Shown here: positions 31,675-60,134 of the stretch, piece after piece | Position numbering within the stretch: position 1 is the stretch's first letter | Layout: each line of letters opens with the position of its first letter | NCBI RefSeq assembly: GCF_000012325.1 | Contig: NC_003910.7 | Coordinates: 4,216,001 to 4,280,000, forward strand | Length of the DNA: 64,000 nt | DNA from: Colwellia psychrerythraea 34H | GTDB lineage: Bacteria; Pseudomonadota; Gammaproteobacteria; Enterobacterales; Alteromonadaceae | Direction: 5' to 3' | Program-made: the position numbers and the translations under genes | Notes under the pieces: model-generated | The model's database searches: none | The model's input: only the letters and a program-made list of their open reading frames with translations | What the model was told of the DNA's origin: nothing

Positions 31675-31700
31675 AAACGGCACATTTATTGTGCCGTTTT
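31675..31700 (+). terminator. Intrinsic terminator of fdhA
   Basis: 10-bp stem (aaacggcaca / tgtgccgttt), 5-nt loop, T-rich end, 18 bp after the fdhA stop. Confidence 0.9.
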
Positions 31701-31780
31701 AGTAACTACAGAGTGACGTAGACATAACAGTGTCAGCAAAGAGCTTATTAGCATTGATATTGTCAACTACAAAGCAATAA
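31700..31780 (+). pseudogene. Decayed tyrosine-integrase fragment at left edge of island
   Basis: One frame reads RRHNSVSKELISIDIVNYK, in phase with the integrase remnant at 59.7 kb (KDRIKIDIDNYKAM). At DNA level 31753-31778 and 59758-59783 agree at 24 of 26 bases, in the same orientation, and the match continues weakly upstream. There is a stop codon within the fragment. It lies immediately after the fdhA terminator. Confidence 0.6.
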
Positions 31781-32467
31781 TTCCCCCAAACGCTTAAACA
31801 AGCCTAGGTTCTGAATCTATGACCAGTTTTAACTGCTGATATTCATAATTCCAGATGGTTGACGGTAAGTTAAGTTTGAGTCGATACTCGACAAGATCTA
31901 ATTGAATTATTTACTCAGTTTTTAAAAGTTGACTTTGATTTTCGTAATCATAAATGCCAAAACCAACGACCATACTTAACACTAACAACAAGGTGTTAAT
32001 GATAAGCTAAACAGATATCGATTTTGTTAATTTTATTAATAACATGTTGTTGTATTTTATCTCAGCTATCAAATCTAAAGCTAACTTCACATAAACACAT
32101 CGGACAAGGCTGTAAACCCAATGTTGATGTCTTGATGTATAGAAATATCATATTTTTATAGCAGAAATTATAACGTCTACTAACTGATAAATCTTGTAAT
32201 TATCCATAAGTTCGGTCCTATTTATATGTGTCTATATTATCGATATTAACTTTAAAATTATTATTGCCCCAGAAAGCACAAATTATATATACACATAACG
32301 CTTAGCAAATAAATGCAGAGCGTTTCAAATGTATATTTCACACTACTTTTAATAGATTGCCCGTGATTCCATTGCTGATAAAAGTTGTTGCCTTGGCATG
32401 TAAAACTTAACGCTGTGAAGATCGCCATACACTCACTTTATTACTAAACTCCCCACGGGCAACCAGT
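31781..32467. other. Junction region without recognisable gene
   Basis: About 690 bp of AT-rich DNA. The minus strand near 31800-31960 has a short reading stretch broken by a stop ('FGIYDYENQSQLLKTE' and stop) that may be gene debris. An inverted pair (ttgcccgtg / cacgggcaa) lies near 32357 and 32453, just downstream of pntB. Confidence 0.4.
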
Positions 32468-33874
32468 TTATGCAGCTTTATTAACAGCCGCAGTTAAGTC
32501 CTGAATTGCTTTTTTACCATCACCAAACAACATCAGAGTATTGTCATTGGCAAATAACGGGTTGGGTAATCCCGCAAATCCCGCGCTGAGACTACGTTTA
32601 ACCACAACCACAGTTTTGGCTTTGTCGACATTAAGAATTGGCATACCATAAATAGGGCTGCCTTTATCTTCCCTCGCCATCGGGTTCGTTACATCATTGG
32701 CGCCAATTACGATCACCACATCGGTCTGATCAAATGTGGGGTTAGCTTCGTCCATGGTTTTCATCAGGTCATAATCCACTTCGGCTTCCGCCAAGAGTAC
32801 GTTCATGTGACCAGGCATGCGGCCAGCAACAGGATGAATGGCATATTCCACCTCTATATTTTGTGACTGGAGTGTATCAGCGAGATCCCTTACGGCATGT
32901 TGAGCCTGTGCCATCGCCATTCCAAATCCTGGAACAATCACTACTCGACTAGCAGTTTCCAAAACCATAGCCACCTCATCTGGGCAAGACGACTTGACCT
33001 TACCACCATAGACTTCATCAGCATCCATAGTTTCGCCACTACCAGTCTCGATGGTACCAAATAGCACATTCACCAACGAACGGTTCATCGCCACACACAT
33101 AATTTGGGTTAGGATAAGACCCGACGCGCCGACTAGCGCACCAGAAATTATTAGCACTGTATTTCCCATGATAAAACCAGCCGCCGCTGCAGCAATACCG
33201 GAATAAGCATTTAACAAAGCAATTACTACCGGCATATCCGCTCCGCCGATAGGTATTACCAGAGTAACCCCCAATACAAGGACAATAGCCACCAATAACA
33301 CCAAATAACCACCACTGACGGGCGACTCAAATAAACCATACCCCATGTACAAAGCGCTAATTACCAACAGTACGTTGAAAAACTTGATCCCGGGAAACCC
33401 TATCGATTTTCCTGGTAACCATTCTTGCAACTTGGCAAGTGCCACCGCACTACCCGACAGTGTCACACCACCGATCAATACGGTTAACACTATTGCTACT
33501 TGCGAGGCAATCAACAAAGGACCGTTGTTCTGTTCTGCACCTACACTCATTACCAGGTAACTGGCCACAGCTATGGCTAGCGAAGCACCACCACCAAAGC
33601 CATTTAGCAAGGCCACCATTTGCGGCATGCTAGTCATTGGCATTTTTTTAGCTAATACCGCACCAACCAGTGAACCCAACAAGATACCTGCGATGATCAA
33701 CTCGTAACTGACGATCTTACTATTAAGAAGTGTCACAACTACCGCAATAAACATTCCGATAGCCGCAACAATATTTCCCCTGACTGCAGTTTTCGGTCGG
33801 GTTAGTCCCTTGATGCCAGTGATAAACATCACCGCCGCCACCAGATATAATAAATCAATCCATATAAAATTCAT
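32468..33874 (-). CDS. pntB: Proton-translocating NAD(P) transhydrogenase, beta subunit
   Basis: 468 aa. Membrane domain of about 9 segments, then the soluble NADP(H)-binding domain III ('VVIVPGFGMAMAQAQHAVRDLAD', 'HPVAGRMPGHMNVLLAEAEV', 'VIGANDVTNPMAREDKGSPIYGMPIL'). With PntAa/PntAb it drives NADH + NADP+ -> NAD+ + NADPH using the proton gradient. Last gene of pntAa-pntAb-pntB (2-bp spacing). In this neighbourhood it would feed NADPH to the F420 reductase Fno. Confidence 0.94.
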   Translation of the reverse strand: MNFIWIDLLYLVAAVMFITGIKGLTRPKTAVRGNIVAAIGMFIAVVVTLLNSKIVSYELIIAGILLGSLVGAVLAKKMPMTSMPQMVALLNGFGGGASLAIAVASYLVMSVGAEQNNGPLLIASQVAIVLTVLIGGVTLSGSAVALAKLQEWLPGKSIGFPGIKFFNVLLVISALYMGYGLFESPVSGGYLVLLVAIVLVLGVTLVIPIGGADMPVVIALLNAYSGIAAAAAGFIMGNTVLIISGALVGASGLILTQIMCVAMNRSLVNVLFGTIETGSGETMDADEVYGGKVKSSCPDEVAMVLETASRVVIVPGFGMAMAQAQHAVRDLADTLQSQNIEVEYAIHPVAGRMPGHMNVLLAEAEVDYDLMKTMDEANPTFDQTDVVIVIGANDVTNPMAREDKGSPIYGMPILNVDKAKTVVVVKRSLSAGFAGLPNPLFANDNTLMLFGDGKKAIQDLTAAVNKAA

Positions 33875-33876
33875 TC

Positions 33877-34164
33877 TTATGCCCTCTTCTTAAACATGCT
33901 TAGCATACGGTGAGTTACCATAAACCCGCTGATCACATTAATCGTCGCCAATACAACAGCGATAAAACCCAATATAGACGCCATTGTGGATGCCCCCTCC
34001 CCAGCACCCGCTGCTATCAGAGCACCAACTATGGTGATCCCCGAAATAGCATTACTGCCGGACATCAGTGGTGTATGAAGTGTCGCTGGTACCTTGGTGA
34101 TCAATTCCACACCCAGATAAACAGCTATTACAAACAAGGCTATCTGTAAGACTAAAATTTCCAT
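33877..34164 (-). CDS. pntAb: NAD(P) transhydrogenase, membrane alpha-2 subunit
   Basis: 95 aa, three hydrophobic segments with 'TLHTPLMSGSNAISGITIVGAL', the conserved start of domain II. In three-gene transhydrogenases (Rhodospirillum type) this piece is separate from the soluble alpha-1 subunit; in E. coli the two are fused. Its ATG overlaps the last base of the pntAa stop. Confidence 0.92.
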   Translation of the reverse strand: MEILVLQIALFVIAVYLGVELITKVPATLHTPLMSGSNAISGITIVGALIAAGAGEGASTMASILGFIAVVLATINVISGFMVTHRMLSMFKKRA

Positions 34165-35351
34165 TATGCTACCTCTGTCATTTGTTCTTGCTCGTTAATC
34201 AACTCCGGCAGTCCCAGTAGGCTCCGAAGTCGAGGATGATATACTGTGCCTTGATGACTCACCAAAGTGCCTTGGACTATCTCATCTTCGAAATCCAATA
34301 CCATCTCACCACTGTCAGTCATTAGCTGCAGCAACAGATTCTCAATATTTTTTCCATATAACTGACTAGCATGATGAGGAATACTGCCAGCGATATTATC
34401 AGGACCTACAATCGTAACCCCGTGGGCTTCAATAGTTTGACCATGTTTTGTCAGTTCGCAGTTACCACCTCGTTCAGAGGCCAAATCGATGATCACCGCT
34501 CCACGTTTCATCCGACTGACCATATCGGCAGTGATCAATACAGGGGATTTTGCGCCAGGGATCGCGGCAGTGGTGATCACCACATCCTGCTCTGCCAACA
34601 CCTCACTCATTAGTTCACGCTGACGGCTCAGAAACTCTTCGCCCTGGGCCTTGGCATAGCCGCCCTGACCTTCTGCAGCTCCGGTGTCCAGTGCCAGTTC
34701 AATTGCCTTGGCACCCACAGAAATAATCTGATCACGCGCTGCTGGACGTACATCGTAAGCCTCAACTATCCCACCAAGGCGTTTAGCGGTCGCTGCCGCC
34801 TGCAATCCTGCAACGCCAGCCCCCATAATAAACACCCGTGCCGGATTTAAGGTACCCGCAGCAGTCATCAACATAGGGTAGATTCGAGGACAGATACTCG
34901 CCGCCATCAACACGGCTTTATACCCGGCAATCGTCGCCATCGAGGAAAGAGCGTCCATACTTTGTGCCCGACTGATCCGCGGGATCAACTCCATAGCTAG
35001 TGAAGTAATATTCTGTTTCGCCAAAAAACCCGCTTGTTCCGGTTCACCTAATGGATCCATCAAACCGATGACCCACTGGTTTGCGCGAAACTCATTGGCT
35101 TCATCGGCAGTCTGTGTCCGTGAGACATTCACCTGAGTGATGACTTCGGCGCGGGTGAGTAGAGTCTGGCGGCAATCAACTATCTCCGCTCCAACAGTCC
35201 TATAATCCTCATCTGTATAACCAGCTTTGACACCAGCATCACTTTCCACCAACACCTGACAGCCTTTGGCTATCAGTACCGCAGCATTTTTTGGCACCAT
35301 CGCCACTCGTTGTTCGTTTGCTTGAGCTTCTTTAGTAATTCCAATAATCAT
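34164..35351 (-). CDS. pntAa: NAD(P) transhydrogenase, soluble alpha-1 subunit
   Basis: 395 aa, alanine-dehydrogenase-like fold, NAD(H)-binding domain I: 'GITKEAQANEQRVAMVPKNA' N-terminus, 'RVFIMGAGVAGLQAAATAKRLGG' Rossmann motif, 'QDVVITTAAIPGAKSPVLIT' and 'DLASERGGNCELT'. First gene of the pnt operon; upstream spacer 35352-35551 has no RutR-like box that I can find. Confidence 0.94.
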   Translation of the reverse strand: MIIGITKEAQANEQRVAMVPKNAAVLIAKGCQVLVESDAGVKAGYTDEDYRTVGAEIVDCRQTLLTRAEVITQVNVSRTQTADEANEFRANQWVIGLMDPLGEPEQAGFLAKQNITSLAMELIPRISRAQSMDALSSMATIAGYKAVLMAASICPRIYPMLMTAAGTLNPARVFIMGAGVAGLQAAATAKRLGGIVEAYDVRPAARDQIISVGAKAIELALDTGAAEGQGGYAKAQGEEFLSRQRELMSEVLAEQDVVITTAAIPGAKSPVLITADMVSRMKRGAVIIDLASERGGNCELTKHGQTIEAHGVTIVGPDNIAGSIPHHASQLYGKNIENLLLQLMTDSGEMVLDFEDEIVQGTLVSHQGTVYHPRLRSLLGLPELINEQEQMTEVA

Positions 35352-35539: not shown

Positions 35540-35551
35540 ATTCTGAAAAAC

Positions 35552-36787
35552 TTAGGCGTCGTTAGCCTGTTCAACGACTGCTTGGAATAACACATCACAG
35601 CCAGCCGCTAAATCGGCAGGATCAGCGTTTTCGGCTTCATTATGGCTGATACCATTTTCACAAGGGACAAATACCATAGCGGTGGGTGCCACCCGCGAGA
35701 TATAACAGGCATCGTGACCAGCGCCACTGATAATATCCTGGTGGCTGTAACCTGACGTTTCAGCAGCTTTCCGTACCGAATCGACACAGTTTTTGTTAAA
35801 AGGTACCGGTGGTGAGTGCCAGATCTGCTCGAACTTCATTTCTAGGCCCTGCTCATCGGCAATTCGTTGGCTTAACTCACGTAGTTCATGGTCCATTGCT
35901 GCCAGAATCTGATCATTGGGATGACGGAAATCAATTGTAAAAAACACTTCTCCCGGAATGACGTTGCGCGAATTAGGGAATACCTGCAACAGACCAACAG
36001 TCGCACAAGCGCTAGGCTGGTTACTCAGACCAATACGGTTAACCTGATCAATAATCTTAGCAGCGCCTACCAGTGCATCTTTCCGACTCAGCATCGGCGT
36101 TGGTCCGGCATGGGATTCCTGCCCTGTAAGTGTCACTTCATACCATCGCTGTCCCTGAGCATCAGTCACAATGCCAATGGTTTTCTTTTCATTTTCGAGG
36201 ATCGGTCCCTGCTCGATATGCGCTTCGAAGAACGCCTTGAATTCACGATTACCGCACTCCACTTCACCGGCATAACCAATGCGGGCAAGCTCGTCCCCCA
36301 TAGTTTTACCATCGAGATCGGCACGACTGAGACCGTACTCAAGATCAAAAACCCCGGCAAATACCCCAGAGGCCACCATCGCTGGTGGGAAACGTGATCC
36401 TTCTTCATTTGTCCAAACAGAAGCTTCAACAGGAGCAAGGGTCTCTATATTGTGATCGTTTAAACTGCGGATCACTTCCAGTCCCGATAATACACCATAA
36501 ATACCGTCAAACTTACCGCCCGTCGGCTGAGTATCTAGGTGGCTGCCCATCACCACAGGTGGCAGACTATTATCTTTACCAGCCCGTCGGGCGAATATGT
36601 TACCCATAGTGTCAACACGAACAGTACAACCAGCCTCCAGACACCAGTCAACGAAGAGGTCGCGCCCCTCTTTATCGAGATCTGTCAGAGCTAACCGGCA
36701 AACACCACCTTTGGGTGTGCCACCAATTTGCCCCATCTCCATCAAGCTATCCCACAAACGCTGACCATTGATTTTATTATTTAACAT
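35552..36787 (-). CDS. M20-family amidase, probable beta-ureidopropionase (N-carbamoyl-beta-alanine amidohydrolase)
   Basis: 411 aa metal-dependent amidohydrolase of the allantoate/N-carbamoyl-amino-acid group. Motifs: 'VVMGSHLDTQPTGGKFDGIYGVL' (metal His/Asp), 'WTNEEGSRFPPAMVASGVFAG' (catalytic/metal Glu), 'FFEAHIEQGPILE' (metal His and substrate site), 'SGAGHDACYISRVAPTAMVFVPCENGISHNEAE' at the C-terminus. In reductive pyrimidine degradation this step turns N-carbamoyl-beta-alanine into beta-alanine, CO2 and NH3. Alternatives in the family are allantoate amidohydrolase and L-carbamoylase; the dihydropyrimidinase, beta-alanine aminotransferase and RutR-like repressor in the island favour beta-ureidopropionase. 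Three RutR-like boxes lie directly upstream. Confidence 0.85.
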   Translation of the reverse strand: MLNNKINGQRLWDSLMEMGQIGGTPKGGVCRLALTDLDKEGRDLFVDWCLEAGCTVRVDTMGNIFARRAGKDNSLPPVVMGSHLDTQPTGGKFDGIYGVLSGLEVIRSLNDHNIETLAPVEASVWTNEEGSRFPPAMVASGVFAGVFDLEYGLSRADLDGKTMGDELARIGYAGEVECGNREFKAFFEAHIEQGPILENEKKTIGIVTDAQGQRWYEVTLTGQESHAGPTPMLSRKDALVGAAKIIDQVNRIGLSNQPSACATVGLLQVFPNSRNVIPGEVFFTIDFRHPNDQILAAMDHELRELSQRIADEQGLEMKFEQIWHSPPVPFNKNCVDSVRKAAETSGYSHQDIISGAGHDACYISRVAPTAMVFVPCENGISHNEAENADPADLAAGCDVLFQAVVEQANDA

Positions 36788-36832: not shown

Positions 36833-36848
36833 TTGACCACTAGGTAAA
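36833..36848. promoter_or_regulatory. RutR-like box A upstream of amidase
   Basis: TTGACCACTAGGTAAA, compared with the E. coli RutR consensus TTGACCA-N2-TGGTCAA (as recalled). It forms a perfect 17-bp inverted repeat with box B across a 9-bp gap. Starts 46 bp upstream of the amidase ATG. Confidence 0.65.
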
Positions 36849-36859: not shown

Positions 36860-36875
36860 TTTACCTAGTGGTCAA
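36860..36875. promoter_or_regulatory. RutR-like box B upstream of amidase
   Basis: TTTACCTAGTGGTCAA, mirror image of box A; two mismatches to the recalled consensus. Confidence 0.65.
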
Positions 36876-36903: not shown

Positions 36904-36919
36904 TTTACCCAATGGTAAA
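36904..36919. promoter_or_regulatory. RutR-like box C upstream of amidase
   Basis: TTTACCCAATGGTAAA, the weakest member of the upstream trio; 44 bp (four helical turns) from box B. Confidence 0.5.
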
Positions 36920-37056: not shown

Positions 37057-38058
37057 TTAACGGAACAACGGGATGATATGTTTACCGTAGTTCTCTATAA
37101 TTTTCTCTTCATCACCGTTATCCAAGTAAACGTTGAACTGGGTAGTACCCGCTTCTTCAAGCTCTTTAATCTTAGTGACATGCTGATCCATATCACCCAG
37201 AACGCAGAAACTCTCAACAATCTCTTTAGAAATAAAATCCAGATATGGGTTATCACTCTGACCGTGTTTTGAGTAGTCGTAACCCTTACGTTGTTCGATG
37301 TAAGCCGTCAGACTTTCAGGAACAAGACCACTGTGAGCTCCATATTTTTCAACGATATCAGCTACATGATTACCCACCATAGCAGGGAACCATTTAGTGG
37401 CTTCGACACAATAATCCATGTCCCCCACATAGGCAGGTGCAGAAGCAATAACTTCAAACTTAGACATATCACGTCCCGCTTCTACACCAGCTTTAATTGC
37501 TTGATCTGCAAACCATTTTACCAGTGATGGTTCTGCGATTTGGATAACAACACCGTCACCTACTTCACCAGCGGTTTTCAACGCTTTAGGACCATAGGCA
37601 CCAATGTATACCGGCAACTCATAACCTTCTGCCCATGGTAATTTCACTGCTTCAGGACTGTCGCCGTACTGAACTTCGTCACCACGGACCATTGCTTTCA
37701 CCTTAGTAGTGAATTCAGCAACACGGGCCAGGTTAGCCGGTTTTTTCCCCATAACTCGCATAGCGCTATCGCCACGACCCAGACCAACATGAAAACGCCC
37801 CTTACTTTGCAGCGCAAGGCTGGCGAATAAACTCGCGGCCACTGACCAGTCACGTGAGTTTGGATTAGTCACACAAGGACCAAAACTTATTTTAGAGGTG
37901 TGTTCCATACACATCGCAATGGCCGGATAACATTCGCGCCACAGCACGTGTGAATCGTAAAACCAGCAATGTGTAAATCCTGCGTCTTCTGCCTGTTTGA
38001 CCAAACTACGTGCACGTTCGGGGCTTACAAACCCTTTGAAAGTAATACCAAAATCCAT
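37057..38058 (-). CDS. F420-dependent LLM-family oxidoreductase; candidate pyrimidine reductase
   Basis: 333 aa from the ATG at 38058, which follows 'AAAGGAGAAAATC'; a longer frame begins 21 bp upstream without a ribosome site. Luciferase-like monooxygenase fold related to methylene-tetrahydromethanopterin reductase: 'DFGITFKGFVSPERARSLVKQAEDAGFTHCWFYDSH', 'GPCVTNPNSRDWSVAASLFASL', 'GRFHVGLGRGDSAMRVMG' and 'VYIGAYGPKALKTAGEVGDGVVI'. It matches the F420-dependent 'CPS_4043' family as I recall it (TIGR03842). Last gene of the cof-fno operon, 51 bp from fno, so F420 is the likely cofactor. The surrounding pyrimidine genes lack a dihydropyrimidine dehydrogenase. I infer that this enzyme reduces uracil or thymine to the dihydro form; that is unproven. 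Confidence 0.88.
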   Translation of the reverse strand: MDFGITFKGFVSPERARSLVKQAEDAGFTHCWFYDSHVLWRECYPAIAMCMEHTSKISFGPCVTNPNSRDWSVAASLFASLALQSKGRFHVGLGRGDSAMRVMGKKPANLARVAEFTTKVKAMVRGDEVQYGDSPEAVKLPWAEGYELPVYIGAYGPKALKTAGEVGDGVVIQIAEPSLVKWFADQAIKAGVEAGRDMSKFEVIASAPAYVGDMDYCVEATKWFPAMVGNHVADIVEKYGAHSGLVPESLTAYIEQRKGYDYSKHGQSDNPYLDFISKEIVESFCVLGDMDQHVTKIKELEEAGTTQFNVYLDNGDEEKIIENYGKHIIPLFR

Positions 38059-38109
38059 GATTTTCTCCTTTATTAACAAAATTGTTATTTTTATTTATTG
38101 TTGAAGCTA

Positions 38110-38787
38110 TTAAGTACCAGGCGCCCAAATTTTAAGACCTGAATGGGTAAACGGTACTTTTTTGGAAATATTAAGACGGATCAGCATCGGCGTAATAGCC
38201 TCTACACAACGGGCATTCACCGCCGGACCTACGTTATACGCACACACATCCATTCGCTGGATAAGAGCAATGACCTGCTCTTTAGCTGCTAGATCGTTAC
38301 CACAAACCAGGATATCGCAATTGATCGCCTGGTCGAGTTTGTTGAGGGTATGAGCAGACACATTGTGCAGTGCTCCTACCACAGGAATATCATCACCTAG
38401 CAGCGCCTGAGCCTCTTCGGTCACCGAGCCTTCAGCCGGCATATCCACCGCTTTAGGATTACCTTCAGCCAGTGGCACAACGATATCCACTAAGATCTTG
38501 TCGGCCAGCTGTGCTTTGATGGCCTCTAAAGTGGTATTGTGCGCGCTATATGGCACCGCTAGAACAACCATCTTATCGGCTGCATCTACCGCATCCTCAT
38601 TATTTGCACCGGAGATAACACCCAGTTCATCACTTGAAGGTTTAATAATTTGATTGAGCTCAATGGCTATTTCATCAGCGCGTGCTGCATCCCTAGAACC
38701 CAACACAACATCAACACCTGCTTTTGCCAAGCGTAATGCAAGACCTCGTCCCTGGGGACCAGTACCACCTAAAATTGCTATTTTCAT
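38110..38787 (-). CDS. fno: NADPH:F420 oxidoreductase (Fno/NpdG type)
   Basis: 225 aa. N-terminal NADP-binding motif '[23 protein letters not shown]' followed by '[11 protein letters not shown]', the Arg/Ser pair typical of NADPH specificity in this family. '[17 protein letters not shown]' and '[16 protein letters not shown]' match archaeal Fno, and a C-terminal F420-binding part follows. Moves hydride between NADPH and F420. Its ATG overlaps the cofE stop by 4 bp, tying it to F420 biosynthesis. In bacteria growing on sugars this enzyme supplies F420H2 from NADPH, the direction expected here. Confidence 0.92.
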
Positions 38788-39557
38788 CTAAATAAATCCT
38801 CTTTTAATGGTCTAACTAAATCGAGGGCTGAACTCACTTCTGATTGCCAGTTAACCCCCTTAAAAATGAGTGCCGGTTTTTTACCATCTTTTGCCATCAA
38901 TAAACCAGACGCGGCGGCCAGTTCATCAGCTAGTGCCGGAGCGGTGACTGCTAATGGGCGGCCAAAAGCATCTTTTTCACCAGCTAAATCCACTTTCGCA
39001 GGGACACCAGCTAGGCCAATGGCTACATTCACTAGCCCCATGCGCCATGGTCGGCCAAAAGTATCGGTGATCACCACTCCAACCCTTACGCCATAGGCTT
39101 CTTCTAGACGGTCACGTAAAGCACGAGCACTAGCGTCTGGATCAACAGGCAAGAGTAGCAAAGTGTCTTTCTGGTCGATATTAGATTCATCTACCGCCGC
39201 ATTGGCGCAGACAAACCCTAGATTATGCTCAGTGATAACAATGCCTTCTGATTGCCCTGCATGTATTACCGCTCGCAAAACACCTTTTGACTCAGCAAGA
39301 ATGACCTCAATTTTACGCGGATCCTTGTTGACCTTATTCGCCAGAGCCAGAGCCTCTGTCGATGGGATAATGTCTTTGAGAGCGACATAACGATCCTCTG
39401 CTTTGGATACCACTTTCTGGGCAATGACTAGAATGTCCCCGTCTTCAATATAAAGCTCCGTTTTGTCCATGGCGCTTATTAAAATCTGCGCCAGATCATC
39501 GCCCGGTTGAATATCACCAATACCGTCGATGGTTTGAATTGTTACGCTGTTTTGCAT
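38784..39557 (-). CDS. cofE: Coenzyme F420-0:L-glutamate ligase
   Basis: 257 aa, stand-alone CofE domain: '[42 protein letters not shown]', '[32 protein letters not shown]', '[25 protein letters not shown]'. Adds glutamate residues to F420-0 using GTP. Unlike actinobacterial FbiB it has no C-terminal FMN (nitroreductase-like) domain, which matters for which phospho-precursor is used. Overlaps cofC by 16 bp and fno by 4 bp. Confidence 0.93.
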
Positions 39558-40174
39558 AATTTATTTAACTCCTGAGTAACTGGACTTGACAATAGTGCCA
39601 ACAACTCTAAATCGTCTGGGGTATCAATATCTAACGCTAATGCAGGTAACTTAATCACCTGGCAAACTATATCCCGCTCCTGTGCCACCCTTTGATGGGC
39701 GAGACTAGAGTCAATACCGTATAAAAACGGGATCGCATTAGGTGGCGTAGTCAGCAATGCATTAGTACCTAGATCAAATGCAGGGCATAATAAAACTGAC
39801 GGCACTGGACGGTAAATCATCAACAGCCGTTCAAACTCCCTGTAATCGAGCTCGGCAATATCCGCGGGGATTAACAGTTGTGACTGAAAATCATTATTAA
39901 GACTCCAGCGGGCGGCACTTTCAACAGCCTGCCGTAAGCCCAGCTTAGTTTCTATCAATACCGATGCACCATAGGTACAGGCGATATCAGATATGAACTC
40001 AGAAGCTGTCACCACCAACAAGTGATGCTGGGGAAAATACTTATTAAAAAATGACAAAGTAGTTTTAAACATCGACAGCGCCAGTGCCTGGCGCTGTCGG
40101 CTGCTCAGTTGTGGATCTAATCGAGTTTTAGACAACTGCGGATCTTTCATGGGTATGACAATATTGGTTCTCAT
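39542..40174 (-). CDS. cofC: CofC/FbiD, phospho-precursor guanylyltransferase of F420 synthesis
   Basis: 210 aa MobA-like nucleotidyltransferase: N-terminal 'IVIPMKDPQLSKTRLDPQLSSRQRQALALSMF', the GTP-binding start, 'LLIPADIAELDYREFERLL' with catalytic acidic residues, and 'CPAFDLGTNALLTTPPNAIPFLYG'. It activates 2-phospho-L-lactate, phosphoenolpyruvate or 3-phospho-D-glycerate, depending on lineage; the choice cannot be read from the sequence. 'GAGGAGG' lies just before the ATG, overlapping the end of cofD. Confidence 0.9.
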   Translation of the reverse strand: MRTNIVIPMKDPQLSKTRLDPQLSSRQRQALALSMFKTTLSFFNKYFPQHHLLVVTASEFISDIACTYGASVLIETKLGLRQAVESAARWSLNNDFQSQLLIPADIAELDYREFERLLMIYRPVPSVLLCPAFDLGTNALLTTPPNAIPFLYGIDSSLAHQRVAQERDIVCQVIKLPALALDIDTPDDLELLALLSSPVTQELNKLCKTA

Positions 40175-43637: not shown

Positions 43638-43722
43638 GACGACTCCCAGATTATAATTATTGTTTTTGTTATCTAAGGGCTTAAATGATCGGCAGTATGA
43701 AATCAATTCATCACCACTAAGT

Positions 43723-43738
43723 TTTACCCTTTGGTCAA
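43723..43738. promoter_or_regulatory. RutR-like box D upstream of cofG
   Basis: TTTACCCTTTGGTCAA; two mismatches to the recalled RutR consensus, 33 bp (three helical turns) from box E. Confidence 0.65.
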
Positions 43739-43755: not shown

Positions 43756-43771
43756 TTTACCATATGGTCAA
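43756..43771. promoter_or_regulatory. RutR-like box E upstream of cofG
   Basis: TTTACCATATGGTCAA; a single mismatch to TTGACCA-N2-TGGTCAA. Confidence 0.7.
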
Positions 43772-45126: not shown

Positions 45127-45210
45127 AAAGGCACTCTGGTTAAAAAATACATAAGAACTGCGACTTACGCACTTTTTGATACGATTAATGAAGACTAACA
45201 CTAATCATAT

Positions 45211-45226
45211 TTTACCAATTGGTCAA
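45211..45226. promoter_or_regulatory. RutR-like box F upstream of DMT transporter
   Basis: TTTACCAATTGGTCAA; one mismatch to the recalled consensus. Confidence 0.7.
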
Positions 45227-49712: not shown

Positions 49713-51164
<1,452 letters not shown>

Positions 51165-51260: not shown

Positions 51261-52808
51261 TTATGCGTTGTTTCTCAGGCTTTTCAGTTCGCTGGCATCC
51301 GACGCTGTTTGCTGGATCCCAACACTACTTTCTGCTTGCTGTTTGCTGGCGGCGATGAAATACACCACACCACCCATAATAGACCCAGTGAACCAACCGA
51401 ATTGATAAAACCAGGAGAACATGCCTGTAGTTATCGCAATGAGCGTCAAGGTGACAGGGATTCCGAAAGCAAGCAGTCCAGCTTTATTGAAGCCACCGTA
51501 AATACCCTCTGATTTATAGAGCTCTGCCAATTCCAGACGCTGTTTTTTGATAATAAAGTAATCGACCACCATGATCCCGGCTATCGGCCCCAGCAAACTG
51601 GAGTAGCCCAATAACCAGCCGGTGTACATGGCTTCAACACTAACATCAGACTCAATCCAACCCAGTTTTTTAAGCAGCTCCCAGCTCATCAGTAACACAC
51701 CCAGCAGACCAGTCAGTAATACACCGCGTGTTTGACTAATCTTCTTGGGTGCTAGGTTCTGAAAATCATTGGTAGGTGACACAACATTGGCGGCAGTATT
51801 AGTCGACAGCGTCGCGATAATAATCATCACCATTGCAATCACCACCCATACTGGGCTGTCGATTTTGCCAATAAGGTTAATTGGATCAGAGATAGTTTCA
51901 CCAACCAAGGTCGTTGAAGCGGCAGTCAAGACTACCCCTAAAGCGGAAAAGAAGAACATGGTAGCTGGCAGGCCTATGATTTGGCCTGCGATTTGTGATT
52001 TCTGTGACTTAACATAACGACTAAAATCCGGAATGTTCAGCGACAAGGTTGCCCAAAAACCAACCATCGCAGTTAACCCGCCAAAGAAGTAACCCCAGAA
52101 TGATGCACCTTCAGGACGGTTAGCGGGTGTGGCTAGAATTTCAGTCACAGAGATCTGTGGATAGGCCCACATCATCAGACCAATACCTACCGCAAGCAAC
52201 AGCGGTGCGGCAACGGTTTCAAGGATCTTAATTGATTCGGAGCCCTTGATAACGATAAACAGGTTAATAGCGAGAAAAGTAAAGAAGCCAAAAACCTCAC
52301 CCGTTCCTCCCAAGGTCGCCCAGGACTCAAACAGATTTGACATCAAAATATGAATAGCGACGCCGCCAAACATGGTTTGGATCCCAAACCAGCCACAGGC
52401 GACTAGCGCTCGGATCATACAGGGAATATTGGAGCCTTTGATACCAAAGGAAGAACGTAATAATACCGGGAAAGGAATGCCATATTTTGTACCAGGATAC
52501 GCATTAAGGGTCAAGGGAATCAATACTACGATATTTGCCAGTAATATGGTGATCAGCGCTTCAGTTACACTCAAACCGAAATAAGCCGTCAAGACCCCCC
52601 CTAGGGTATAGGTCGGCACACAAATTGCCATGCCCACCCACAACGCCGCGACATTCCAGGTATTCCAAGTCCTGTCTTTCACACTCGTCGGGGCCATATC
52701 TTCATTATAGTGATCACTATCCTGGACATCTTTGCCCACTTCTAGCTCATAAAATTCGCCAACCTGAACGACTGACGAAGAATTTAAATTACTGTTGCTC
52801 ATCTTCAT
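51261..52808 (-). CDS. NCS1-family nucleobase/hydantoin/allantoin permease
   Basis: 515 aa, about 12 membrane segments. 'WNTWNVAALWVGMAICVPTYTLGGVL' (TM1 with NCS1 Trp/Asn signature), 'GTKYGIPFPVLLRSSFGIKGSNIPCMIRALVACGWFGIQTMFGG', 'SLNIPDFSRYVKSQKSQIAGQ' and 'GPIAGIMVVDYFIIKKQRLELAELY' are family hallmarks. Imports uracil, allantoin, hydantoin or similar with Na+ or H+. Pairing with dihydropyrimidinase and a RutR-like box upstream suggests a pyrimidine base or dihydropyrimidine. First gene of the two-gene unit. Confidence 0.9.
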   Translation of the reverse strand: MKMSNSNLNSSSVVQVGEFYELEVGKDVQDSDHYNEDMAPTSVKDRTWNTWNVAALWVGMAICVPTYTLGGVLTAYFGLSVTEALITILLANIVVLIPLTLNAYPGTKYGIPFPVLLRSSFGIKGSNIPCMIRALVACGWFGIQTMFGGVAIHILMSNLFESWATLGGTGEVFGFFTFLAINLFIVIKGSESIKILETVAAPLLLAVGIGLMMWAYPQISVTEILATPANRPEGASFWGYFFGGLTAMVGFWATLSLNIPDFSRYVKSQKSQIAGQIIGLPATMFFFSALGVVLTAASTTLVGETISDPINLIGKIDSPVWVVIAMVMIIIATLSTNTAANVVSPTNDFQNLAPKKISQTRGVLLTGLLGVLLMSWELLKKLGWIESDVSVEAMYTGWLLGYSSLLGPIAGIMVVDYFIIKKQRLELAELYKSEGIYGGFNKAGLLAFGIPVTLTLIAITTGMFSWFYQFGWFTGSIMGGVVYFIAASKQQAESSVGIQQTASDASELKSLRNNA

Positions 52809-53029: not shown

Positions 53030-53045
53030 TTTTCCATTTGGTCAA
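53030..53045. promoter_or_regulatory. RutR-like box G upstream of NCS1 permease
   Basis: TTTTCCATTTGGTCAA, two mismatches to the recalled consensus, about 220 bp upstream of the permease start. Confidence 0.55.
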
Positions 53046-54007: not shown

Positions 54008-54247
54008 TGATACACCCTGTCAATAATCTATTTAATAAGTAAATTATTAGTTTTTTACTTATAACATATTGATTATAAATAAAAATAAATATAGGTGAGT
54101 AAAGGCTAACCTAAAAGTTAGTACAAATGTATTTATCACTTGTTGTCATCCGAGCAAACTGAATTTCAATCAAACAGGCTAGATCCTGGGCTATTTGCCC
54201 CGCTTTGGCCTCGCTTAACAAACAACTGTCAATCTAAGGGAACAATA

Positions 54248-55591
54248 ATGTCAGCTTTTGATATCCAACAATCTGCCAGTATGAGCCGAGAAGAACTAGA
54301 AGCTTACTGGATGCCATATACTGCCAATCGTCAGTTTAAAGAAAAACCTCGGATGATTGTGGGTGCCAAAGGCGCCTATTATACAGACGCCGATGGTCGC
54401 AAAATATTCGATGGTTTGTCCGGACTATGGACTTGTGGTGCAGGTCACAACCGCCCCGAAATTGCCGAAGCAGTTTACAAACAACTTGGTCAACTCGATT
54501 ATGCGCCAGCATTCCAGTACGGTCACAAGGGCGCCTTCGAACTGGCAAATAGAATTAAGGAGTTGACCCCAGACGGCCTTGACCATGTATTTTTTACTGG
54601 TTCAGGTTCAGAAAGCGCTGACACCTCATTAAAAATGGCCCGCGCTTACTGGCGAAAAAAAGGTAAAGGTACCAAAATCAAACTTATCGGTCGTAGCAAA
54701 GGTTATCACGGAGTCAACTTCGGTGGCTTTAGCGTTGGTGGTATCGGTGCCAACCGCACTCTTTATGGACCAGCGGTTGATTGCGATCACCTGCCACACA
54801 CTATGTTGCCTGAAAACAAGTTTATCCGTGGCATGCCTGAAACGGGTGCAGAAAAAGCCGAAGAGTTACTTGAACTCATAGCGCTACACGATGCGTCAAA
54901 TATTGCCGCAGTGATCGTCGAACCGCTCGCAGGATCTGCAGGGGTGCTGCCACCACCTAAAGGTTACCTAAAACGCTTACGTGAGATCTGTGATCAACAT
55001 GAAATACTATTAATCTTTGACGAAGTGATCACCGCCTTTGGCCGAATGGGCTCTAATACAGGTGCTGAAGAGTTCGGTGTGGTACCGGATATTCTCAATG
55101 TCGCCAAGCAACTGACCAACGGAGCGGTGCCTATGGGCGCGGTGATTGTCAACGATGACATTTACCAGACATTTATGGATAACGGTGGTCCCGAGTATAT
55201 GATGGAATTGCCACACGGCTATACCTATTCAGGACACCCGGTCGCCTGTGCCGCTGCTCTGGCATCACTGGACATATTGAAAAACGATCAGTTGATCACC
55301 CGAGTACGGGAGATGAGTCCAGTATTTGAACATGCCCTGCACTCACTTAAAGGTACCCAGTACATTAGTGATATACGCAACTATGGTCTGGCAGGTGCAC
55401 TAACTATTGAGTCAGCACCAGGAGAGCCAGCATTACGTCCATATCAAATTGCCCAGAAGTGTTGGGAAAAAGGATTTTATGTACGTTATGGTGGCGACAC
55501 TATCCAACTTGGCATGCCATTTATTGTTGAGCATCAAGAAATTGATGATGTAATCAACGCGGTGGGAGAGTCAATTAACGAATTGAGTTAA
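54248..55591 (+). CDS. Beta-alanine:pyruvate aminotransferase (class III)
   Basis: 447 aa from the ATG at 54248, which follows 'AAGGGAACAATA'; an upstream frame from 54140 is not needed. Class-III PLP transaminase: 'YWMPYTANRQFKEKPRMIVGAKGAYYTDADGRKIFDG', 'FFTGSGSESADTSLKMARAYWRKKGKG', 'LLIFDEVITAFGRMGSNTGAEEFGVVPDILNVAKQLTNG' (PLP lysine in AKQLTNG), 'YSGHPVACAAALASLDIL'. Very like Pseudomonas omega-amino acid:pyruvate aminotransferase. It converts beta-alanine plus pyruvate to malonate semialdehyde plus alanine. Followed by the semialdehyde dehydrogenase, with which it forms the end of pyrimidine catabolism. Confidence 0.92.
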   Translation: MSAFDIQQSASMSREELEAYWMPYTANRQFKEKPRMIVGAKGAYYTDADGRKIFDGLSGLWTCGAGHNRPEIAEAVYKQLGQLDYAPAFQYGHKGAFELANRIKELTPDGLDHVFFTGSGSESADTSLKMARAYWRKKGKGTKIKLIGRSKGYHGVNFGGFSVGGIGANRTLYGPAVDCDHLPHTMLPENKFIRGMPETGAEKAEELLELIALHDASNIAAVIVEPLAGSAGVLPPPKGYLKRLREICDQHEILLIFDEVITAFGRMGSNTGAEEFGVVPDILNVAKQLTNGAVPMGAVIVNDDIYQTFMDNGGPEYMMELPHGYTYSGHPVACAAALASLDILKNDQLITRVREMSPVFEHALHSLKGTQYISDIRNYGLAGALTIESAPGEPALRPYQIAQKCWEKGFYVRYGGDTIQLGMPFIVEHQEIDDVINAVGESINELS

Positions 55592-55693: not shown

Positions 55694-57184
55694 ATGAGTA
55701 TCGTAGGACATTTGATCAACGGCGAAAATCGCACAGACGCAACACGTCACCAAGATATATTTAATCCATCAACGGGCCAAGTAAGTAATCAGTTAGCAAT
55801 TGCTGGTAAAGCGACCGTTGAAGAAGCAATTGAAGCTGCTAATGCTGCCTTTCCAGCTTGGCGCGCTACCCCTCCGGCAAAACGCGCCCGGGTTATGTTC
55901 CGCTTTAAAGAGCTATTGGAACAACATGCTGATAAGATCATTACCCTGATTGGCGAAGAGCACGGAAAAATATCACACGATGCCCAAGGAGAATTGCAAC
56001 GCGGTATCGAAAGCGTTGAATATGCCTGTGGTGCCCCAGAATTACTTAAAGGTGAACATAGTCGTAATGTCGGCCCGTCGATTGATTCATGGAGTGAGTT
56101 CCAGCCACTGGGTGTTGTTGCGGGCATCACTCCGTTTAATTTCCCGGCGATGGTACCCTTATGGATGTACCCAATGGCAATTGTTTGCGGCAATACATTT
56201 ATCCTAAAACCATCAGAGCGCGATCCTAGTTCCACACTATTTATTGCTCAATTATTAGAAGAAGCGGGGTTACCACCAGGCGTGCTAAACGTTGTTAATG
56301 GTGACAAAGAAGCGGTAGATACACTGCTCCATTCACCAAAAATTCAGGCAGTTAGTTTTGTAGGTTCGACCCCTATTGCCGAATACATCTATGCGACTGC
56401 TAGCGCTAACGGCAAACGCTGTCAGGCACTAGGCGGCGCTAAAAACCACGCCATCGTATTGCCCGATGCAGATATGGACAACGCTGTTAATCAACTACTC
56501 GGTGCTGCCTTTGGATCTTCAGGTGAACGTTGTATGGCTTTATCTGTGGCAGTCACTGTCGGTAACGCCGCCGGTGATGCGCTAGTTGCTAAAATGAAAC
56601 AAGCGATGACAGGTCTCAAAGTCGGCGCTCATAACGATAGCAGTAATGATTTTGGTCCAGTGATCACCAAACAGCACCAGGAAAAGGTTGTTGGCTATAT
56701 TAATAGTGCTGAAGAAGACGGTGCCAAGATTGTTGTTGATGGCCGTAATCCAAAAATTGCAGGTTTCAGCGAAGGATTTTTTGTTGGTGGCACGCTAATC
56801 GATAACGTCACCCCGGAAATGATCAGTTATAAAGAAGAGATATTTGGTCCGGTATTACAGGTAGTGCGTGTAGAAAGCATGCAAGAAGCAATGAATCTTA
56901 TCGATGCCCACGAGTATGGTAACGGCACTTGCGTATTTACCCGTGATGGCGAAGCTGCACGATACTTCTCTGATCATATTCAGGTAGGCATGGTTGGTAT
57001 CAATGTACCTTTACCAGTACCTGTCGCTTATCATAGCTTCGGTGGCTGGAAGCGTTCATTGTTCGGTGACTTACATGCCTATGGCCCGGATTCAGTTCGC
57101 TTTTACACCAAACGTAAAACTATTACCCAACGTTGGCCATCGACCGGTGTCCGTGAAGGCGCTGAGTTCGCATTCCCTTCATAA
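55694..57184 (+). CDS. mmsA: CoA-acylating (methyl)malonate-semialdehyde dehydrogenase
   Basis: 496 aa aldehyde dehydrogenase of the MmsA/IolA group: 'GVVAGITPFNFPAMVPLWMYPMAIVCGNTFILKPSERDPS', 'KIQAVSFVGSTPIAEYIYATASANGKR' and catalytic Cys in 'GSSGERCMALSVAV'. This family converts malonate or methylmalonate semialdehyde, CoA and NAD+ to acetyl- or propionyl-CoA, CO2 and NADH. That finishes uracil and thymine degradation after the aminotransferase just upstream. 'AAAGGAG' precedes the ATG. Confidence 0.92.
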   Translation: MSIVGHLINGENRTDATRHQDIFNPSTGQVSNQLAIAGKATVEEAIEAANAAFPAWRATPPAKRARVMFRFKELLEQHADKIITLIGEEHGKISHDAQGELQRGIESVEYACGAPELLKGEHSRNVGPSIDSWSEFQPLGVVAGITPFNFPAMVPLWMYPMAIVCGNTFILKPSERDPSSTLFIAQLLEEAGLPPGVLNVVNGDKEAVDTLLHSPKIQAVSFVGSTPIAEYIYATASANGKRCQALGGAKNHAIVLPDADMDNAVNQLLGAAFGSSGERCMALSVAVTVGNAAGDALVAKMKQAMTGLKVGAHNDSSNDFGPVITKQHQEKVVGYINSAEEDGAKIVVDGRNPKIAGFSEGFFVGGTLIDNVTPEMISYKEEIFGPVLQVVRVESMQEAMNLIDAHEYGNGTCVFTRDGEAARYFSDHIQVGMVGINVPLPVPVAYHSFGGWKRSLFGDLHAYGPDSVRFYTKRKTITQRWPSTGVREGAEFAFPS

Positions 57185-57209
57185 CCCCTAGCGTTTAGTC
57201 TTTATCAGC

Positions 57210-57463: not shown

Positions 57464-58072
57464 ATGTCAGTTAATTTTGTTGATTCATGTCGACTACCCA
57501 CGCATTTAGGTGAGTTTGAAATGTATGGTTTCGTGGAAGAAAGTGGTCAGGAGCATATAATGTTAACCTATGGTGAGATAACTCCAGATAAGCCATTGTT
57601 AATTAGACTTCACTCTGAATGCTTAACTGGTGATTCTTTATTTAGTATGCGATGTGACTGTGGTTATCAACTAGAAACAGCATTAGAAAACATTGTTGAT
57701 GCTGGCCAGGGTGCATTACTTTATTTACGCCAAGAAGGTCGTGGTATTGGCTTAATTAATAAAATTAAAGCTTATCATTTACAGGACGATGGCGCCGATA
57801 CTGTTGAAGCGAATGAACAACTTGGCTTTGCCGCCGACTTGCGCCGTTACACTATGTGTAAACCAATGCTGGAACATTTTCGTGTTAACAAAGTTAAATT
57901 ATTGACCAATAATCCGAAAAAAGTACAGGCATTAAAAGATTTGGGTATCGAAGTCGTTGAACAGATGCCAATTCAAGTTGGGCGCAACCAGTACAATCAT
58001 GAGTATTTAAACACTAAAGCCGAAAGAATGGGTCATATGATGACACATGGATTGTTAAGTGATTTAGGGTAA
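57464..58072 (+). CDS. ribA: GTP cyclohydrolase II
   Basis: 202 aa, single-domain RibA like E. coli (no fused RibB). Zinc motif '[20 protein letters not shown]' with three Cys, catalytic '[20 protein letters not shown]' and '[17 protein letters not shown]', then '[12 protein letters not shown]'. First step of riboflavin synthesis from GTP; the pathway intermediate 5-amino-6-ribitylaminouracil is also the substrate of CofG/CofH. Its place in the F420 island suggests extra precursor supply. Own promoter in a 280-bp spacer; I saw no FMN riboswitch there. Confidence 0.93.
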
Positions 58073-58257
58073 GGGATTATGTCGCATCGTTGATTACTAT
58101 GATGTGGTCAACTAGAACAATTCAGTATTATTATCGTTTAAAAATGCATTCACCTTAATATTAGGTATTCTGTTATACCGTCTATTTTTGAATTTACCTA
58201 TGTCTTAACTGGCTGAATAAAAGGGACTGCGGTTATGGACTTGTTTCACTTCCTGTC

Positions 58258-58914
58258 CTAAATATTAAGGCCGATACCTTTTAGCAAGGTGTGGGTGAGG
58301 AAATCACCAGCACTTTTGAAATCATCATTTTCAAGCGAAGATTTGCCCAAAGCTATCTGGATCTGAGTGGAGAAGTCGGCATAGGTCTGGGTGGACGCCC
58401 AGATCACAAAAAATAAGTGATGGGGATCAATATCATCAATTAACCCTTGAACAATCCAGCCTTTAACCAGTTCGACATCCCTTTCCAGCGCCGGCGCTAG
58501 ATTTTCCTTAAGGTATTGGCTAATATGCGGCGCACCATTGATTATTTCATTGGCAAAAACTTTAGAGCCGTTGGGGTGGCTCTGGGAAATCTCCAACTTA
58601 CCGCGTATGTAATTGGATAACATGGTGGCCGGATCTGTGCCTTCCTGGTCTATTAGATTCATTCTTGCCAACCAGAGATTTAATATATTTTTCAGCACTT
58701 TCTGATAGAGTAGCTCTTTGGAGGAAAAATAATATAGCATATTCTGCTTGGAGAAGCCTGCTTGCTCAGCAATGGACTCTATAGTAGCACCATTATAACC
58801 ACGGTGGGCAAAGATGTGTTCCGCCGCTTCAATAATTTTAACTTCGTGGGCTTCACGGGTTCTTGAACGACGACGTTTGGTAGTTGGCTTCTCTTCAGGT
58901 CTATTTAACAACAT
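58258..58914 (-). CDS. RutR-like TetR-family repressor
   Basis: 218 aa from the ATG at 58914; alternative GTG or TTG starts lie a few codons upstream. N-terminal TetR helix-turn-helix ('IIEAAEHIFAHRGYNGATIESIAEQAGFSKQNMLYYFSSKELLYQKVL', about residues 25-75). The C-terminal ligand domain is close to E. coli RutR ('NLWLARM', 'SNYIRGKLEISQSHPNGSKVFANEIINGAPH', 'FFVIWASTQTYADFSTQI'). RutR binds uracil or thymine and then leaves its box. RutR-like boxes occur ahead of four island units, so this is the likely local repressor. Faces ribA tail to tail. Confidence 0.88.
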   Translation of the reverse strand: MLLNRPEEKPTTKRRRSRTREAHEVKIIEAAEHIFAHRGYNGATIESIAEQAGFSKQNMLYYFSSKELLYQKVLKNILNLWLARMNLIDQEGTDPATMLSNYIRGKLEISQSHPNGSKVFANEIINGAPHISQYLKENLAPALERDVELVKGWIVQGLIDDIDPHHLFFVIWASTQTYADFSTQIQIALGKSSLENDDFKSAGDFLTHTLLKGIGLNI

Positions 58915-59323
58915 GGGGACTTTCACTACAAAATATAGGACAGAAAACAACTAATAATAGCTATTAATGAATCGGCATTATATGCCAATGAAAATACTAT
59001 GTCAGTTGTTTTATGTGAGTATATTCCCTTATCACAGACTAAGATCACAGTTAAATCAATATTTTGGGGTATAAATATGTTCAAGCTACATTGAACTTTA
59101 CTAAATTATTGAGTGCTGAACGATAGCGTAAAAAAGCAATCTCTGATTCCAATTTACATCCACTTATTTGCAATTTCAGCTATAGAAAATAAATCTCAGA
59201 TAAAATAAAGACTTTGAAAGTTATAAAAATAGAGGGCTAACTTTACCTATGATAAAAAGCTGTCCCAATCTTTGTAAGCTATCAGTTGGAATCAAATGCC
59301 TGTTATGCTCGTAGAGGTATACC
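58915..59323. other. Region without recognisable gene upstream of rutR-like gene
   Basis: About 400 bp, AT-rich, expected to hold the rutR-like gene promoter. No RutR-like box, hairpin or coding stretch that I can support. Confidence 0.4.
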
Positions 59324-59536
59324 TTAACAGTTAGAAACAACGGCATCAATTTGTACCAAAGCATCCATAGGGATAGCCGAAATGCCAATTGTTGTTCTTG
59401 CAAAAAGAGAGCTGTTAAAGAATTTTTTGTAAACTTCGTTTACAGCATTAATATCTGTGATATTTTTAAGTTTAGTATTTACTTTAGCTACATCATCCAT
59501 AACGTGATCGACACTTCCCACAATTGCCTTGATATG
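59324..59536 (-). pseudogene. C-terminal remnant of a RidA/RutC-family gene
   Basis: About 70 codons read 'KAIVGSVDHVMDDVAKVNTKL...INAVNEVYKKFF...FARTTIGISAIPMDALVQIDAVVSN', the C-terminal half of a RidA (YjgF) protein with the active-site Arg region 'ARTT'. The N-terminal half is missing; a stop appears just upstream exactly where the integrase fragment begins (59534). RutC of the Rut uracil pathway belongs to this family, so the remnant may have belonged to a pyrimidine set, though ordinary RidA is equally possible. Confidence 0.7.
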
Positions 59537-60134
59537 GATAGATTAAATGAATTATATGCAGAAGTTATTACCAAAGCGTTATCACTCTCACATGTTGATC
59601 AATATTTAAAAACTTATGTGGCGGATAAATCTAACCATGTTTACAATGCTAAGATCTCATTTTACGTAAAGTGTTTAATTATCTTCTTGACGAGGTTGCA
59701 ATGGTTACAAACTATGTCACCAAAAGAAGAAAAAAACCAACAAAAGATCGTATTAAAATTGATATCGACAACTACAAAGCAATGTTAACCTCTGCCGAAC
59801 ATTACCTCAGCACTGCCATGCGTCTAGCTTTACAAACCACACACGCAATTAATGAAATCAGCTCAGCGAAATATAACGATTGTGCTTGGCTGAAAAAAAC
59901 TACATTGCAAGATGCTTACTTGTATTTGGTACGCTAAGAATTCATAGACAAAAGTGAAGGAAAAAAAATCGTCCTATATTTCACAAGATCCGTTATCTCT
60001 CAATACTCTTGTATAGTAAAAAAGGTTTAGATCCACAAGAACGCGCTGCTCACTCGGACGCAAAGACCACGAAAAAATACAAAGAAGGGCATGTTGAATG
60101 GGTGCAAATTCAAGCCACTGAATTAGCTATTTAA
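59534..60134 (+). pseudogene. Decayed phage-type tyrosine integrase gene
   Basis: Three successive frames read an integrase. 'MDRLNELYAEVITKALSLSHVDQYLKTYVADKSNH' is frame 1; 'MVTNYVTKRRKKPTKDRIKIDIDNYKAML...ALQTTHAINEISSAKYNDCAWL' is frame 2. After a deletion, 'GLDPQERAAHSDAKTTKKYKEGHVEWV' (frame 3) carries the C-terminal His/Tyr region of tyrosine recombinases. A frameshift near 59665, a stop at 59937 and the loss of the middle catalytic domain make it non-functional. It sits between the rutR-like gene and rplS, marking the island's right edge. Confidence 0.85.

Follow-up and report, generated by a model that had tools for sequence, protein, structure and literature searches.

Why does Colwellia psychrerythraea 34H carry genes for making the cofactor F420 among genes for pyrimidine catabolism, and which enzyme would reduce the pyrimidine ring there? 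The question is raised by an island within a stretch of 64,000 nucleotides from this gammaproteobacterium (contig NC_003910.7, positions 4,216,001 to 4,280,000; hereafter the window, in whose numbering island coordinates are given). The reason why Proteobacteria make F420 is listed as unanswered in the portion of a 2021 review that was available (PMC8498797). We put the probability at roughly 0.86 that pyrimidine catabolism as encoded by the island follows a reductive pathway in which F420 serves the first step. Its luciferase-like oxidoreductase, a member of the family TIGR03842, is very probably an F420H2-dependent uracil/thymine reductase that replaces dihydropyrimidine dehydrogenase, and this role as the first step is argued from elimination, linkage, co-occurrence and co-regulation. 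F420 binding and uracil reduction by the TIGR03842 protein, and the direction of the reaction, are predictions from sequence.

We scored the genes of the window with NCBIfam models and compared the bits with curated cutoffs, adding matches to Pfam and to PDB (Table 1). The island was found to extend from about 32468 to 58950. CofG, CofH, CofD, CofC and CofE all scored above their curated cutoffs, and their genes form a single run, cofG-H-D-C-E, with those for an NADPH:F420 reductase and the TIGR03842 oxidoreductase, after which come a Zn amidase and a three-gene transhydrogenase. A Tsx-like channel, a dihydropyrimidinase and an NCS1 permease are encoded upstream of this run. Farther on, a beta-alanine aminotransferase, a malonate-semialdehyde dehydrogenase and an additional ribA lie on the opposite strand, and the RutR gene comes last. 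The original prediction, made from the sequence without database searches, had placed an F420-dependent pyrimidine catabolism island at 31700..60134. Every gene that it named is present by NCBIfam matches and the island is real, but its limits are narrower than claimed; no island genes were seen by eye between 59 and 60.1 kb of the window, and the rplS/trmD block starts at 60.2 kb. Similarly, the transhydrogenase exists but is split into three genes, and the NCS1 permease, the RutR-like repressor and PntB are present as relatives that score under their curated cutoffs. The Tsx-like channel and two DMT transporters had been overlooked, as had the RutR-type operators ahead of four genes. The pathway steps after the first may be assigned with support at the family level for each.

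The original prediction also held that only the first enzyme of the reductive pathway is missing in classical form; its view of F420H2 would have been contradicted by a functional PreT/PreA or PydA elsewhere in the genome that alone supports uracil use, and the search for such an enzyme was negative. PF01180, which we take to be a domain of dihydropyrimidine dehydrogenase catalytic subunits, gave two places in the whole genome, one at 295 bits (L001, which reads as PyrD by eye) and one at 38 bits (L002). The latter was rejected as a hidden dihydropyrimidine dehydrogenase; it is instead an LldD/pre-mycofactocin-synthase-like flavin mononucleotide enzyme, with a best NCBIfam score of 301 bits, under the cutoff of 471. 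A profile search found no PreA over cutoff in the genome (best 48 bits, at the PyrD place, for a cutoff of 335), and RutA had no match there at E 1e-60. No PreA/PydA-type enzyme or RutA was thus found in the genome, in searches that did not extend to URC-type and oxidative pyrimidine pathways. The luciferase-like domain PF00296 matches the genome at a single place, the island gene itself, in a count that leaves aside the FDOR and FrhB families.

The closest structures to the oxidoreductase are those of the F420-dependent Mer (methylene-tetrahydromethanopterin reductase), and the best 15 rows of the structure comparison were all F420 enzymes. Membership of Mer was nevertheless rejected. The protein scored 142 and 145 bits with the Mer models, under their cutoffs of 349 and 276, and the position of Mer Glu6 is Thr (29) or Cys (15) in 44/44 aligned TIGR03842 members. 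This glutamate presumably has a catalytic role in Mer, of which E6Q is a solved mutant structure. Membership of RutA was rejected as well, with RutA over cutoff in 0/50 carrier genomes (the strain's own and 49 reached through hand-picked loci among the 80 described next).

A scan of 84,980 species genomes with the oxidoreductase gave 92 relatives, and the best 80 of the 92 loci were kept, locus genes being counted at an identity of at least 38%. These loci come from many genera of Gamma-, Beta- and Alphaproteobacteria. At least four of six cof/fno genes were found in 59/80 loci and at least one pyrimidine gene in 52/80; both were found in 46/80, where the cof-fno-oxidoreductase run recurs with pyrimidine genes in the neighbourhood comparison that the original prediction had proposed, a recurrence that speaks against a chance arrangement. 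A TIGR03842 carrier drawn blind in a sample of the phylum (G148) has dihydropyrimidinase, NCS1, amidase, rutR, cofGHDCE, fno and oxidoreductase genes side by side.

Among the 50 carriers, cofH was over cutoff in 48, the two without it being Devosia, and dihydropyrimidinase was present in 49. The background consisted of 299 genomes sampled from the phylum. TIGR03842 was over cutoff in two of them, leaving 297 non-carriers, and the weaker matches in a further 113/299 are other luciferase-like proteins by score. Dihydropyrimidinase occurred in 77/299 and PreA in 56/299, every PreA genome being among the 77. PreA was found in 56/75 dihydropyrimidinase genomes without TIGR03842 versus 4/49 with it (Fisher p 6e-14, uncorrected for kinship), and in 16/20 dihydropyrimidinase genomes of the background from the strain's own class. 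Of the four genomes that carry both systems, three have two dihydropyrimidinases (G301, G335, G339), and in three a dihydropyrimidinase lies within 5 kb of PreA (G301, G336, G339). The co-occurrence of F420 synthesis, oxidoreductase and dihydropyrimidinase, together with the depletion of PreA, supports the predicted role of F420H2 as the direct reductant in a reaction that we infer. One of the double-system genomes, G301 (L007, a Colwellia metagenome-assembled genome), holds an F420 island and a PreA locus, with its own dihydropyrimidinase at each.

According to the accessible part of PMC10891134, the site bound by Escherichia coli RutR is a 16-bp palindrome, and uracil converts the protein to a non-DNA-binding form. 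The uracil-contacting residues given there, W77, Y97, W167, Q171 and Q179, are all conserved in the island RutR (alignment, hand-counted), which is under the equivalog cutoff of TIGR03613. We searched for operators with the pattern TTKACCANNTGGTMAA. Because it was widened from the E. coli consensus after the window had been viewed, the operator counts in the window are partly fitted, and those in the other loci are the fairer test. In the window, 7 sites with at most one mismatch were found, all before island genes, while 20 shuffles averaged 0.3; by eye, a -35-like TTGACC starts one box each at cofG, the amidase and the DMT gene. Only two perfect sites exist in the 5.37-Mb genome, both in the island, which also holds seven of the 27 places with at most one mismatch.

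Across the 80 loci, 178 sites with at most two mismatches were found versus 14.3 in shuffles. A site with at most one mismatch lies within 450 bp upstream of 47/57 cof operons, compared with 13/1140 random control stretches from the same loci; the 57 are those with enough upstream sequence, two more being too near a contig end. Three further cof operons have a box at two mismatches only, and 7/57 have none within two mismatches (L036, L051, L053, L054, L056, L080, L083), L036 having a one-mismatch site inside its tblastn-extended cofG match. Paired boxes are 32-34 bp apart in 26/38 close pairs. A control set of cof operons without TIGR03842, which had two members (L106, L107), showed no box. 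In 20 dihydropyrimidinase regions of other carriers, a site with at most one mismatch was found in 12 and with at most two in 19, counted anywhere in the region and uncontrolled; in L099 and L100, among those 12, the one-mismatch site is not before a pathway gene. Outside the island, boxes lie 52-53 bp before cdd-deoA and deoB (G000:C1:2038325 and 2043822, L109), beside NupC and uridine kinase, and these genes are likely to be further RutR targets. RutR is predicted to bind these RutR-type operators. Those before the cof operon support the claim that F420 is made for pyrimidine catabolism more directly than the original prediction could; that it is made largely for this purpose is suggested by the operators and by the single PF00296 place, the latter a search of the luciferase-like family.

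According to the available part of PMC4744452, C. psychrerythraea 34H under cerulenin showed CPS_RS18085 (allantoate amidohydrolase) 11-fold up and CPS_RS18095 (NADPH-dependent F420 reductase) 4-fold up. By product names and tag spacing, these would be the amidase and the F420 reductase of the island, which flank the oxidoreductase. The data show joint induction, which counts in favour of the pathway proposed here, and not its cause.

An importer-type arrangement was found in 11/80 loci, ten of them titled Devosia (L062, L063, L065, L069-L072, L074, L076, L077, L082). Here one strand carries, in order, the genes for FGD (F420-dependent glucose-6-phosphate dehydrogenase) and CofE, three genes of a putative F420-0 ABC transporter and the oxidoreductase gene. 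In L062, where the run covers 5271-11014, four models were over cutoff (TIGR03554 492, TIGR01916 219, TIGR03868 437 and TIGR03869 443 bits) and TIGR03873 was below it (343 bits, cutoff 372). The two importer-type genomes searched for cofH (those of L062 and L063) had none over cutoff, and in both of these cofH-less carriers the oxidoreductase is immediately preceded by FGD, CofE and the putative F420-0 ABC importer. In 11/11 loci the run is headed by a RutR-type site close upstream of its first gene; ten of these sites are perfect and the eleventh has one mismatch. The run is a candidate F420 scavenging system.

In the pathway that we propose, pyrimidines would enter through the Tsx-like channel and NCS1. 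The transhydrogenase would use NADH to form NADPH, the F420 reductase would use NADPH to form F420H2, and the TIGR03842 enzyme would reduce uracil (or thymine) by hydride transfer from F420H2, with dihydrouracil as the product. Ring opening and decarbamoylation, through dihydropyrimidinase and the Zn amidase, would then yield beta-alanine, CO2 and ammonia, and the aminotransferase and the CoA-acylating dehydrogenase would complete the breakdown of the carbon skeleton. The additional ribA may feed the FO precursor. RutR would repress the cof operon, the amidase, the permease unit, cdd-deoA and deoB until released by uracil, so that the cofactor would be made together with the pathway. More broadly, it seems probable, at a confidence below that for the island itself, that F420 is an on-demand catabolic cofactor in many Proteobacteria: uracil, through RutR, would induce its synthesis (in Devosia, F420-0 uptake plus CofE) for a pyrimidine reductase displacing the iron-sulfur flavoenzyme dihydropyrimidine dehydrogenase.

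Several observations weigh against this proposal. Cof genes occur without a pyrimidine gene in the fetched stretch in 13/80 loci, and in another 15/80, which include the 11 importer-type loci, neither kind of gene reaches the thresholds used. PreA is over cutoff in 4/50 carriers, and RutA-like proteins that stay under the cutoff of 498 (at about 223 bits) occur in two. The carrier statistics are not independent, since the carriers are kin and were all identified through their similarity to a single protein. Since TIGR03842 was not over cutoff in 2/4 of the phylum-sample genomes with cofH (4/299), F420 has other roles in the phylum. With two mismatches allowed, the genome holds 184 sites versus 166 in the control, hardly an excess, and it is where the operators lie and how they are conserved that carries the argument; moreover, no box with at most two mismatches precedes the aminotransferase, MMSDH, ribA or rutR genes in the window. 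Five of the 20 non-island places with at most one mismatch were examined, and three lie away from pyrimidine genes: the first about 65 bp upstream of a sulfatase gene, the second inside glucose-6-phosphate isomerase and the third with no open reading frame (ORF) of 120 aa within 450 bp. In addition, the literature searched yielded no assay of a TIGR03842 protein.

Other explanations of the locus were weighed against a reduction of uracil by F420H2. The oxidoreductase could act later, for example in turning (methyl)malonate semialdehyde into the hydroxy acid, with some other enzyme reducing uracil; but a CoA-acylating semialdehyde dehydrogenase is already present in the island, the known first enzymes are missing from most carriers, and the closest match is Mer, not the alcohol dehydrogenase, which makes such a role improbable indeed. 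It is also possible to imagine that the cluster degrades another cyclic amide, such as hydantoins or a purine-derived ring, and that uracil is merely the inducer. TIGR02033, the model matched by the dihydropyrimidinase, is named D-hydantoinase, and an F420 luciferase-family reductase has been proposed in uric acid loci of Chloroflexota, in the available part of PMC12507026. However, the island includes beta-alanine aminotransferase and malonate-semialdehyde dehydrogenase, one or both of which lie beside dihydropyrimidinase in 11/20 regions of other carriers, and boxes stand before cdd-deoA; we regard this explanation as very improbable.

A further alternative is a RutA-like flavin/O2 ring-opening monooxygenase, the F420 genes then serving another purpose. 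With RutA missing at its cutoff from every carrier, with F420 enzymes as the nearest relatives by sequence and fold, and with fno and cofE adjoining the oxidoreductase in most loci, this is highly improbable, and it would leave the dihydropyrimidinase without a substrate. Barely credible is a Mer-type methylene-tetrahydrofolate or -methanopterin reductase that lies in a pyrimidine locus by chance, as the Mer scores and the Glu6 replacement given above argue against it and RutR-type operators precede the oxidoreductase operon. An F420-dependent first step of pyrimidine catabolism is the interpretation that we favour.

Table 1. Features of the island in the window, with predicted functions, model or PDB scores and mismatches of RutR-type operators to TTKACCANNTGGTMAA.
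Feature	Position	Strand	Evidence
pntB-like transhydrogenase beta subunit (putative NADPH supply)	32468..33874	-	NF006974 440 bits, below cutoff 689
Split transhydrogenase alpha-2 subunit	33877..34164	-	ORF
Split transhydrogenase alpha-1 subunit	34164..35351	-	NF006942 388 bits, cutoff 383
Zn amidase, probable N-carbamoyl-beta-alanine amidohydrolase (beta-ureidopropionase)	35552..36787	-	TIGR01879 436 bits, cutoff 204
RutR-type operator before amidase	36833..36848		1 mismatch
RutR-type operator before amidase	36860..36875		1 mismatch; minus strand starts with the TTGACC
RutR-type operator before amidase	36904..36919		1 mismatch
TIGR03842 F420-dependent luciferase-like oxidoreductase, proposed uracil/thymine reductase	37057..38079	-	502 bits, cutoff 295
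NADPH-dependent F420 reductase (Fno/NpdG)	38110..38787	-	TIGR01915 205 bits, cutoff 150
cofE, F420-0:glutamate ligase	38784..39557	-	TIGR01916 248 bits, cutoff 181
cofC guanylyltransferase	39542..40174	-	TIGR03552 178 bits, cutoff 105
cofD transferase	40175..41161	-	TIGR01819 278 bits, cutoff 257
cofH, FO synthase half	41158..42450	-	TIGR03551 529 bits, cutoff 374
cofG, FO synthase half	42459..43706	-	TIGR03550 503 bits, cutoff 213
RutR-type operator before cofG, downstream of pair	43723..43738		1 mismatch; 33 bp from next box
RutR-type operator before cofG	43756..43771		0 mismatches; minus strand starts with the TTGACC
DMT-family transporter	44173..45201	-	Weak YddG/2A78 matches; homologue in 2/80 loci
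RutR-type operator before DMT gene	45211..45226		0 mismatches
Tsx-like nucleoside channel, outer membrane	48798..49526	-	PF03502 60.6 bits, cutoff 27.2
Dihydropyrimidinase	49713..51155	-	TIGR02033 609 bits, cutoff 393; PDB 5e5c 800 bits
NCS1 nucleobase permease	51261..52808	-	TIGR00800 317 bits, below cutoff 353
RutR-type operator before permease-dihydropyrimidinase unit	53030..53045		1 mismatch
Beta-alanine:pyruvate-type aminotransferase	54140..55591	+	NF052567 (omega-aminotransferase AptA) 718 bits, cutoff 500; PDB 4b98 622 bits
(Methyl)malonate-semialdehyde dehydrogenase, CoA-acylating (MMSDH)	55694..57184	+	TIGR01722 666 bits, cutoff 449
Additional ribA, GTP cyclohydrolase II	57464..58072	+	TIGR00505 258 bits, cutoff 206; ribA-like gene in 4/80 loci
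RutR-like uracil-sensing repressor	58258..58950	-	TIGR03613 185 bits, below cutoff 368; E. coli RutR 150 bits

The amidase matched the PDB entries 8c46, an N-carbamoyl-beta-alanine amidohydrolase (486 bits), and 1r3n, a beta-alanine synthase (295 bits); three PDB chains with generic names outscore 8c46, and the family models are common to allantoate and carbamoyl amino acid amidases. PntA passed one model and not a second (342 bits, cutoff 444). A pntB-like homologue (68-79% identity) lies near the amidase in 12/80 loci, and an alpha-2 homologue (67-78% identity) lies between the other two pnt genes in 12/80 loci. The window has separate cofG and cofH genes. CofH frames as long as a CofGH fusion (836-864 aa) were seen in G323, G328, G331, G338 and G344 (L042, L047, L050, L057, L067), outside the fetched oxidoreductase locus; the available portion of the review PMC8498797 assigns the CofGH fusion to Proteobacteria. 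Beside the aminotransferase gene, a LysR-type regulator on the minus strand at 53394-53988 looks broken (a 134-aa helix-turn-helix part, the rest in other frames, by eye), and LysR-like genes lie near the aminotransferase in some other loci. At the island border, a short ORF at 60009-60134 that adjoins rplS resembles by eye the end of a tyrosine recombinase and is possibly a remnant. A glycine betaine/sarcosine/one-carbon catabolic cluster (BCCT, SHMT, SoxA/SoxG, PurU, glutathione-independent formaldehyde dehydrogenase) adjoins the island at 16364-31656.

In the literature searched by title and abstract opening, we found no proposal of F420-dependent pyrimidine reduction; older key papers and RegPrecise tables were outside this scope, and earlier priority is possible. 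If true, the proposal gives a testable answer to why many marine and soil Proteobacteria genera make F420. It would assign a proposed substrate to an orphan F420 family and add to pyrimidine catabolism a variant whose first step depends on F420. It would also predict nucleobase-induced cofactor synthesis and tie the putative F420-0 importer to a pathway. As a speculation, a first enzyme free of iron-sulfur could fit iron-poor or oxygenated waters.

With the reductive (Pyd/Pre) pathway, the island shares dihydropyrimidinase, an amidase of probable N-carbamoyl-beta-alanine type, beta-alanine aminotransferase, a semialdehyde dehydrogenase, an NCS1 permease and RutR; unlike that pathway, it has an F420 luciferase-like enzyme and cofactor biosynthesis in place of PreTA/PydA, which were not found. 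It resembles the Rut pathway (RutA-G) in its RutR control, and RutA is of the same fold and acts on uracil, whereas in the island RutA is missing and the proposed chemistry is reduction, not oxygenation. F420-dependent Mer is closest in sequence and fold and transfers a hydride with F420, but the island enzyme falls under the Mer cutoffs and its family has Thr or Cys at Mer Glu6. NCBIfam already names TIGR03842 (F420_CPS_4043) as F420-dependent and TIGR03868/03869/03873 as a putative F420-0 ABC transporter; these names, compared as names and not as full descriptions, give no substrate, pathway or regulator. The yanthine reductase proposed for Chloroflexota uric acid loci in 2025 differs from the island enzyme in its purine ring, in its phylum and in being a prediction only, in the available part of PMC12507026. 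There, likewise, an F420 luciferase-family enzyme would replace a reductase, in that case of the YgfK/UacX type.

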